Assembly (NCBI RefSeq): GCF_002906165.1
Contig: NZ_PPCN01000011.1
Location: 62,001 to 126,000 of the forward strand
Direction of reading: 5' to 3'
DNA length: 64,000 bases
From: Roseibium marinum
GTDB lineage: Bacteria > Pseudomonadota > Alphaproteobacteria > Rhizobiales > Stappiaceae
The position numbers and the translations under genes were made by a program. The notes beneath the pieces are model-generated. The model made no database searches and was not told where the DNA came from. It saw only the letters and a program-made list of their open reading frames with translations. Positions within the stretch are counted from its first letter, which is position 1. Each line of letters starts with the position of its first letter. Shown here one piece after another: positions 39,494 to 41,238 of the stretch.

Positions 39494-40111
39494 ATGAATA
39501 CGGTCTCTCAAAATCAACTCAAAAGCGTATGTGTGTATTGCGGATCCAGCTTCGGTTCGGATTCCTCACATGAGGCGGCTGCGATCTGGCTGGGTCAGCT
39601 CATAGCGGAAGCGGGCCTGCGTCTGGTCTATGGCGGAGGGTCTGTCGGTCTGATGGGCACGGTCGCGAATTCCGCACTGGAAGCGGGCGGAGCCGTCACG
39701 GGCATCATTCCGCATTTCCTGGAAAAGCGGGAAGTCATGCTGGAGTCCCTTGACGATCTGATCGTCACAAAGGACATGCACGAGCGTAAGCATCTGATGT
39801 TCCAGAAGTCGGATGCCTTTATCGCCCTGCCCGGCGGTATCGGAACGCTTGAGGAAGCCGTGGAGATGATGACCTGGGCGCAACTTGGTCAGCATCGCAA
39901 ACCGGTCGCGCTCGCCAATATCAACGGCTTCTGGTCACCGCTGCTTGAACTTTTCGATCACATGCGGGCGCAGGGCTATATTCGGCCGGAAACCGAAGTG
40001 CCCTATCTGGTCGCCAATCGGATCGAGGATATCCTGCCGATGCTGCGCCGGTCGCTTTCAGGTGAACCTCAGGAAATCTCCACCGACTTTGTCTCCGTTT
40101 CGGATCTTTAG
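39494..40111 (+). CDS. LOG family protein (TIGR00730)
   Basis: A 205-residue lysine-decarboxylase-like Rossmann protein, probably a nucleoside-5'-monophosphate phosphoribohydrolase (cytokinin-activating LOG type). It has VCVYCGSSFGSD, GGGSVGLMG and the catalytic signature PGGIGTLEEAVEMMTW. Its stop codon TAG is made of the target TA and the first base of a mobile element that begins at 40111; without the element the stop would be the same, TAG. Confidence 0.92.
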   Translation: MNTVSQNQLKSVCVYCGSSFGSDSSHEAAAIWLGQLIAEAGLRLVYGGGSVGLMGTVANSALEAGGAVTGIIPHFLEKREVMLESLDDLIVTKDMHERKHLMFQKSDAFIALPGGIGTLEEAVEMMTWAQLGQHRKPVALANINGFWSPLLELFDHMRAQGYIRPETEVPYLVANRIEDILPMLRRSLSGEPQEISTDFVSVSDL

Positions 40112-40294
40112 GGTCTGTGGACAATTAGGTTTGGGTCGCGGCGCGAGCCGGATTTCGGTGTCCGAACAGGAGGAAAGTCCGCAGTGGTGCCGCCCACCAC
40201 AAGGACTTTCCGACGCAGTCGGGACCGAAATCCGCCGCGTCTCGAAGAGATTTGGATGCAAAACCTCGACCAAATCCTTAGTGTCCACAGACCC
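40111..40294. mobile_element. MITE-like hairpin element with TA duplications
   Basis: A 184-bp non-coding element. Ends are inverted repeats: GGGTCTGTGGACA is exact for 13 bases and matches at 24 of the first 28. TA flanks both ends (40109-40110 and 40295-40296), as in IS630/Tc1-mariner insertions. Inside, nested arms GGATTTCGGT (40150-40159)/ACCGAAATCC (40224-40233) and GGAAAGTCC (40172-40180)/GGACTTTCC (40203-40211) allow one long hairpin. It has no transposase gene, so movement would need a helper elsewhere. Confidence 0.8.
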
Positions 40295-41238
40295 TAGAGC
40301 ACTTTTTCCGGCAGCGTCACGCCCTTCCGCAGGCTTTTCCGGTAACGCCGCCAGCTGTCATAGGTGAAAACCGCCAGCGCGGCCCAGATCATGACAAAGC
40401 CGATCAGCCTGGTTTGATCCAGCGGTTCGCCCCAGACATAGACGGCCATCAGGAAATGCAGGGATGGCGCAAGATATTGCATCAGCCCGAGCATGAAGAG
40501 CGGCACCCTGCGGGCAGCCGAGGAAAACAAGATCAGCGGCAGAGCCGTGACAATGCCGGTTCCCGCAAGCGCCGCCAGAACCGGCAGGTCGTTGAGGACG
40601 AGGGCATCCACTCCCCAGCTCAGGTTCAACAGAATGTAGACCCCGGCCAGAGGAAACAGCAGCAGTGTTTCGACAAACAGGCCGGGCGTTGCCTTGACCG
40701 GCGTGACCTTGCGGACATAGCCATAGCCGGCGAAGGAAAACGCCAGGACAAGCGATACCCACGGCAAGCCGCCAGCCAGAATAGCCTGCAGGATCACAGC
40801 CAGCACAGCGATCGCGACCGCAATCCCCTGCCCGCGCGACAGTTTCTCGTGCAGCACCGCCAGCCCGACCACAATGCTCACCAGCGGATTGATGAAGTAT
40901 CCGAGCGAAACATCAAGCACCTGGTTGTTGGCAATCGCCCAGACGAACACCAGCCAGTTCACCGCGATGAAGGTAGCCGAGGCACTCAGTGCCATGAGCA
41001 CCTTCGGCTGGCGGAAGACCTCCCGCACTTCCTGCCATCGGCCGCGCAGGTAAAGATACAGCCCGACGAACAGCACCGACCACAATATCCGGTGGGAGAC
41101 GACGAGATCCGCCGGAACCGTCTCCGTCAGCTTGTAGTAGGCCGGAAGAAAGCCCCACATGGCATAGGCCGCCAGGCCGAACAGGAGACCTTGGCGCAAA
41201 TCGGCCTGCGCGTCGGTGTCGGGCACCGTCTGCGACAT
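40294..41238 (-). CDS. rarD: RarD protein, EamA-type transporter
   Basis: A 314-residue permease with ten membrane helices of the EamA/DMT superfamily, RarD type: GLAAYAMWGFLPAYYKL, SHRILWSVLFVGLYLYL, NWLVFVWAIANNQVLDVSLG and a final WAALAVFTYDSWRRYRK. Substrate is unknown in this family. Its stop codon is formed at the edge of the MITE-like element; removing the element would leave TAA at the same position. Confidence 0.92.
   Translation of the reverse strand: MSQTVPDTDAQADLRQGLLFGLAAYAMWGFLPAYYKLTETVPADLVVSHRILWSVLFVGLYLYLRGRWQEVREVFRQPKVLMALSASATFIAVNWLVFVWAIANNQVLDVSLGYFINPLVSIVVGLAVLHEKLSRGQGIAVAIAVLAVILQAILAGGLPWVSLVLAFSFAGYGYVRKVTPVKATPGLFVETLLLFPLAGVYILLNLSWGVDALVLNDLPVLAALAGTGIVTALPLILFSSAARRVPLFMLGLMQYLAPSLHFLMAVYVWGEPLDQTRLIGFVMIWAALAVFTYDSWRRYRKSLRKGVTLPEKVL

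Follow-up and report, generated by a model that had tools for sequence, protein, structure and literature searches.

MITEs usually keep their ends while their interior drifts. Correia elements and the RIME of Rhizobium are structured, mostly intergenic and of the 100–200 bp class, and REPINs and REP elements are moved by REP-associated tyrosine transposases. We know of no TA duplication at YTAR for REPINs or REP elements. The account in PMC3116915 presents them as palindromic, gene-free, dispersed and often extragenic, and MiniMdi3 of Methylobacterium, as outlined in PMC2680597, is a short, gene-free IS-derived MITE with ends matching a resident IS. For Paracoccus, the account in PMC3281130 gives the ISs of the IS427 group of the IS5 family (such as ISPpa6 and ISPam4) a length of 832–865 bp (for the tabulated ISs considered here), mostly 2-bp repeats, inverted ends of 13–21 bp and two ORFs that overlap and in some cases contain a frameshift motif.

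We analyzed an element that lies in a 64,000-nucleotide stretch of Roseibium marinum DNA (contig NZ_PPCN01000011.1, positions 62,001 to 126,000), hereafter the window. With the IS427 group, as described in PMC3281130, it shares the 2-bp duplication and the inverted ends, and its presumed partner IS, presented below, resembles the group in size and in a DUF4096/DDE transposase split over two overlapping frames. Unlike these ISs, the window element is gene-free and only its outer 20–24 bp match the IS. In its shortness, its lack of genes and its ends matching a resident IS it is similar to MiniMdi3 (PMC2680597), and in its palindromic, gene-free, dispersed and often extragenic nature to REPINs and REP elements, which are much shorter (PMC3116915). 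The likeness to Correia elements and RIME is one of descriptions, not of sequences. Unlike in usual MITEs, the outer ends are less conserved here than the interior fold across an order. No description of this MITE family, or of IS5-type docking at double stops, was found in the titles and abstract starts surveyed from the open-licence PMC literature.

The element at the LOG-rarD junction

The element separates two convergent genes, and the features of the junction are as follows.

39494..40111, plus strand: LOG-type gene (PF03641), 205 aa; its stop TAG overlaps the left edge of the element
40109..40296, plus strand: MITE copy including the edge TAs (184 bp without them), from repeat and copy alignment
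40109..40110, no strand: left copy of the duplicated TA, the first two bases of the LOG stop TAG
40111..40127, plus strand: left terminal inverted repeat, GGGTCTGTGGACAATTA
40144..40239, no strand: first long arm of the conserved fold, with arms 40144–40159 / 40224–40239 and nested hairpin GGAAAGTCC..GGACTTTCC
40255..40264, no strand: deletion junction (approximate); the copy lacks some 86 bp present in the 270-bp form, from alignment with 17 full-length copies
40278..40294, minus strand: right terminal inverted repeat
40295..40296, no strand: right copy of the duplicated TA, within the rarD stop (TAG, minus strand, 40294–40296)
40294..41238, minus strand: rarD/EamA transporter gene (PF00892), 314 aa; its stop TAG overlaps the right edge of the element

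The first-pass annotation had described a 184-bp element with inverted ends and TA at both edges, into which LOG reads CTT-TAG from the left and rarD CTC-TAG from the right, and the sequence confirms this description: 40109–40296 reads as TA, 184 bp with inverted ends, and TA. The arms 40106–40141 and 40264–40299 are 83% complementary over 36 nt. Folding with RNA parameters gives –107.8 kcal/mol (z –11.1), a value reached by none of 200 shuffles. Compared with the form of about 270 bp the window copy is internally deleted, being short of about 86 bp that make up most of the second long hairpin arm. A scan for intrinsic terminators found no terminator-like site at this copy, and a terminator role was rejected for it on this ground. 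The body also contains GAGGAAAGTCCG, which we take to be reminiscent of RNase P. Rfam covariance searches were empty for window positions 39900–40500 (E up to 1) and for the full-length copy L003 (E up to 5) and, for L246, returned one CRISPR-DR20 row (E 2.1) far below the gathering score and overlapping the element edge; an RNase P-like or other known RNA was set aside, there being no Rfam match on the elements tested.

According to the same annotation, the insertion hit a TA shared by two overlapping stop codons and spared both proteins. In silico removal of the element and one TA does give the claimed join (CTT-TAG-AG, in which LOG ends in TAG, rarD in TAA, and the TA is common to both), but this exact empty site is absent from every relative read in the genus. 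The comparison covered 30 loci, the own genome included; the script missed LOG in nine of them, and rarD was found beside LOG in three relatives, where the two stops are 7 nt (G040), 7 nt (G021) and 37 nt (L062) apart, and not in the rest. In G024, the 57 nt after the LOG stop hold no stop overlap. The LOG proteins of the four closest relatives (G040, G024, G021 and G017) terminate in VSDL or VSEL, hence LOG was not truncated by the insertion. The end of rarD differs among relatives, so the insertion may have been into the LOG stop alone, with rarD coming to end at the element later. The rarD of G024 (locus L041) has its stop within CTAG (ACC-TAG), a site open to insertion that carries no element.

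Copies and target sites

The R. marinum genome (6.06 Mb) carries 21 two-ended copies plus fragments, in agreement with the proposal of a multicopy MITE that duplicates TA. Seventeen of the 21 are full-length, about 270 bp, and 96–100% identical to L003; the folding energy of this form is –151.7 kcal/mol (z –11.5). Internal deletions mark the remaining four, the window copy together with L021, L023 and L025. Together with one IS, the two-ended copies make up the 22 R. marinum sites used below, from which one-ended or decayed pieces (C1:203872, C1:963558, C4:60360, C5:114527, C5:116467 and C15:89320) were left out.

The piece at C5:116467, outside the site counts, also ends a called gene at its TAG. 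In the same region (L033 2028–4014, i.e. C5:114527–116513), two MITE pieces in opposite places flank two genes, named by eye as short-chain dehydrogenase-like and BKACE/DUF849-like, the second of which ends at the TAG of the right piece. L033 could be a cassette bounded by MITEs.

Of 68 insertion sites, 65 have the TA within YTAR, and 48 of the 68 are CTAG; the 68 include two IS copies (L031, L232), and the edge TA was assumed where it has decayed (L015, L023 on the left, L323 and L324). The R. marinum sites (21 MITEs and the IS) comprise 20 CTAG and 2 TTAG, the window copy being at TTAG. From other genomes of the genus 40 loci were fetched, 13 with decayed or partial ends were left out, and the 27 classified are all YTAR (19 CTAG, 4 TTAG, 3 CTAA, 1 TTAA). 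From the family, the order, two plasmids and one MAG, 18 MITE sites were classified along with the IS of G017, L245, L255, L315, L317 and others with partial ends being left out; 16 of these 19 are YTAR and the exceptions are TTAT, TTAC and CTAC. A 4-bp CTAG duplication is disfavored, since the TTAA and CTAA sites in other genomes favor TA within YTAR.

The first base of the element, next to the TA, is G and its last is C, so that a TAA or TAG stop struck at its TA reads TAG on either side. Because the edges read TAG both ways, overlapping convergent stops are rebuilt as two separate TAGs. CTAG itself is about 12-fold under-represented (386 seen versus 4515 expected by base composition in 1.264 Mb of the R. 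marinum genome, window included).

Empty sites, although not found in exact form at LOG-rarD, were recovered at other copies when the joined R. marinum flanks were aligned with G040, G021, G024 and G017. Orthologs were available for seven of nine queried loci; none was found for L007 and L011. At L003, a second double-stop site, a copy lies between convergent genes (PF07786 and PF01636) with overlapping stops. In three of the four relatives this site is empty and the stops share one TA (TAA/TAA in G021, TAA/TAA in G024, TAA/TAG in G040), while G017 differs; insertion into a TA common to two convergent stops is thus supported at L003. At L002, GCTCTAGAAACTC is identical in G040 and G021, and at L013 G021, G040 and G024 retain GTTCTCTAG or something close to it. 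Homologous stops are empty in at least one of the four relatives at L002, L006, L013, L014, L015 and L018. Examples of a stop missing at the homologous place are G017 at L006, G017 and G024 at L018, and G021 at L014.

Association of insertion sites with stop codons

Outside MITE copies, 1.264 Mb of the R. marinum genome contain 368 CTAGs, distributed over called genes (143), intergenic DNA (179), single stops (44) and double stops (2). The corresponding numbers for the 22 sites are 0 in genes, 9 intergenic, 11 at single stops and 2 at double stops, so that 13 of the 22 lie at stops. With a home-made gene caller, which allowed genes open at the ends of short loci, and with sites treated as independent (which they are not fully), stop overlap is overrepresented relative to the non-coding CTAGs (13/22 versus 46/225, Fisher test, P-value 2e–4), also for MITEs only (12/21 versus 46/225, P-value 5e–4) and for two-ended copies with the same caller and the same segments (6/9 versus 46/225, P-value 0.005). 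The excess shrinks as the background is tightened: it is less pronounced against YCTAGR (22/80, P-value 0.007) and when intergenic gaps above 600 bp are dropped (46/131, P-value 0.03), so that 59% of sites stand against 20–35%, depending on the background. Double stops (2/22 versus 2/225, P-value 0.04) are too few to build on. In the other genomes of the genus 10 of 27 sites are at stops, 13 are intergenic and 4 were scored inside a called gene; in the set from the family, order, plasmids and MAG, with the G017 IS, 12 of 19 are at stops and 1 is inside a gene. We conclude that the stop excess is likely real but moderate.

An IS with matching ends

We searched the R. marinum genome for the 15-base ends, allowing up to two mismatches, and found a single inward pair at IS spacing, C2:129111–129956 (846 bp). 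It encodes, split over two overlapping frames, the DUF4096 and DDE portions of an IS5-family transposase (NCBIfam transpos_IS5_3; PF13340, 5e–27; NF033580, 1e–34 and 1e–24 for the two pieces, the second of which alone falls below the curated cut-off) and is the only NF033580 match in the genome. The ends differ from those of the MITE by one mismatch per 15 bases, and 20–24 bp are common to both at each end. A blastn comparison of two MITE copies with two IS copies matched below E 0.1 at the ends only; the interior shows no sign of derivation from the IS.

The IS of G017 is 94% identical, has TAGGGTCTGTGGACA at both ends without mismatch over 15 bases, and is set at CCC-TA..TA-GAG. No MITE match was found in G017, the holder of this best-matching IS. 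Similar ends at CTAG occur on IS5-type ISs of G017 and G043, those in G043 differing from the ends of its own MITEs. Of 32 IS5-type loci that were scanned, 12 had inverted ends; for some other subfamilies, such as that of G042, no IS with matching ends was identified. Judging by the ends, the MITE would be moved in trans by an IS5-family transposase of the IS427 type.

Distribution and conserved fold of the family

Family matches are present in 13 of 45 genomes of the genus and in 12 of 397 sampled genomes of the order Hyphomicrobiales, own genome included in both, the latter representing 9 of 141 genera. Plasmids of Roseibium aggregatum, of Terrarubrum flagellatum and of a Rhizobium carry them too, and among the hosts are several bacteria of marine and of soil origin. 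On the Terrarubrum plasmid (NZ_CP091854), the annotated stop of a sarcosine oxidase beta gene coincides with the right edge of the element, and the start codon of the delta gene abuts its left edge. Scanning for a 19-base motif of the body brought up 30 loci, of which 15 were from Roseibium/Labrenzia; only three of the other 15 (L250, L255, L263) belong to the family by nhmmer.

The consensus fold of 31 aligned members (alignment A2) consists of an outer stem, two long arms and a small hairpin. Two-sided changes are seen at 64 of its 90 pairs (43 of 61 outside the outermost helix), and standard pairs are formed in 94.8% of cells. The covariation score is 0.420, compared with 0.143 for shuffles (none of 500 reached it) and no more than 0.102 for the slid structure, with the reservation that the structure was derived from the same alignment, which favors it, and that shuffles ignore relatedness. 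What is G-U on one strand reads A-C on the opposite one. The folds of the two strands have 81 pairs in common, and in these G-U and A-C cells are about equally frequent (48 and 50); in the union of both folds they number 122 and 144. An oriented RNA is hence not clearly indicated. A strand-specific RNA was rejected for want of a wobble bias in the common pairs. The fold appears to be kept at the DNA level or equally in both directions; however, the minus strand is predicted to be more stable in 25 of 31 members, which counts against full symmetry.

Ends and bodies

Mean pairwise identity is 0.587 for the outer 12 bp of the repeats (alignment columns 6–17 and 277–288), 0.635 for unpaired and 0.743 for paired core positions, with the outermost TAGG nearly invariant. 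Ends and bodies disagree on kinship: the Terrarubrum element and G205a have identical ends and bodies 56% alike, whereas RHIZO2 and the Rhizobium plasmid copy are 83% alike in body and 53% in ends, and G085a and G073a 77% and 41%. The end of the G073 copy, TAGGCCGTGTGGACG, matches one end of an IS5-type IS of G040 exactly and the other with one mismatch. The simplest reading would be an exchange of ends; as an alternative, ends may change independently along with the transposases. The comparison suggests a structured, end-swapping passenger of IS5-type transposases.

In Roseibium sediminicola (G018), the flank common to four copies (L165, L170, L173, L176) reads ...CAGATTCGGGTGAC or the complement of this, which places the MITE there beside or within another dispersed repeat. 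The same genome has an inward pair of TAGGGTCATTTGA, 261 bp apart (C23:40059–40319), possibly another MITE subfamily; unpaired TAGGGTCATTTGA sites occur also in G034 and G042.

Discussion

Overall, this MITE enters the TA of YTAR, preferably CTAG, and duplicates the TA, as the copy alignment and the empty sites show. The sequences at the edges show that a struck TAA or TAG stop is rebuilt on the spot, and that overlapping convergent stops become two separate TAGs. Where CTAG is avoided genome-wide, stop codons and intergenic DNA would make up most of the harmless targets, which would explain the frequent docking at stops. The window copy probably inserted into the overlap of the LOG and rarD stops, or sits there at present, and has lost the greater part of its second arm. 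The weakest step is that the branched body would be kept by selection at the DNA level or strand-symmetrically, and perhaps aids mobility or the pairing of ends. We hold it highly probable, on comparison of the sequences, that the explanation as a whole is right, i.e. that this is a MITE mobilized by an IS5/IS427-type transposase, with a YTAR target, stop-rebuilding ends and a selected fold.

The first-pass annotation had assigned the element to the IS630/mariner type, and a TA duplication with short inverted ends would be expected of an IS630/Tc1-mariner MITE with a plain TA target. However, the proposed check for an IS630 transposase with matching ends led to an IS5-type IS instead: the sole end pair at IS spacing in the R. 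marinum genome bounds an IS5/IS427-type element (the search being for ends, not for IS630 transposases), the target is YTAR, with CTAG in 48 of 68 sites, and similar ends at CTAG are found on the IS5-type ISs of G017 and G043. We rejected the assignment on the ends and regard it as barely credible. The annotation also left a choice between selection and targeting as the cause of stop docking. The answer lies mostly in the target sequence, YTAR/CTAG, and the modest excess over it fits selection. An active preference for stops beyond YTAR, through transcription, R-loops or a host factor, could draw on that same excess (59% of R. marinum sites versus 20–35% of CTAG backgrounds) and on the double stops (2/22 versus 2/225, P-value 0.04), but the latter amount to two events, the background depends on gene calls, and purifying selection on coding and promoter-proximal insertions yields the same skew. 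We therefore consider such a preference unlikely; selection against coding and promoter insertions is sufficient to explain the excess, which fits the loss of such insertions.

The conserved body invites two further readings. It could be a functional RNA (a 3' UTR stabilizer, a bidirectional terminator or an sRNA), with docking at stops kept as the host profits; the very strong fold with its two-sided changes, the placement directly behind stop codons and the greater stability of the minus strand in 25 of 31 members would agree with this. Yet G-U and A-C cells are balanced in the common pairs (48 versus 50 in 81), either end may face the gene (11 versus 21, P-value 0.11), the window copy has no terminator-like site, the elements tested have no Rfam match, and the relatives' sites are empty at the compared loci, so that docking is not shared. 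This makes a functional RNA quite improbable. Compensatory changes could also be a by-product of templated repair rather than of selection: long imperfect hairpins are known to undergo quasi-palindrome templated correction, and the strand symmetry fits. Changes between recent copies in paired columns are mostly one-sided, though, 67 of 72 over three genomes (one-sided/two-sided 23/0 in 17 R. marinum copies, 36/5 in 10 copies of G018 and 8/0 in 7 of G042), which makes it less likely that fast templated repair is the only cause. We find this reading doubtful, with some chance of being right. Selection on the fold, the reading we prefer, leads to a broader and still tentative idea, which we put forward as possible: the family might be an ancient modular passenger, about 270 bp of branched DNA kept across Hyphomicrobiales, that would swap its ends to match the available IS5-type transposase and would be near-harmless through stop rebuilding, its fold (e.g. 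as a cruciform joining the ends) making it movable by many transposases.

The LOG-rarD insertion was read correctly and exemplifies a rule that holds generally for this MITE family. New here are a fold conserved across an order, the variability of the ends and the way in which stops are regenerated, including a second double-stop locus whose site is empty in relatives. The family offers a sequence logic for low-cost entry into gene-dense DNA: the target is palindromic, seldom occurs in coding frames and in many cases is a stop, while the ends of the element restore a stop in both directions, so that convergent genes can both stay intact. That the fold is conserved and the ends are more variable inverts the usual expectation for MITEs, and gives a testable case that secondary structure, beside terminal repeats, matters for MITE spread.
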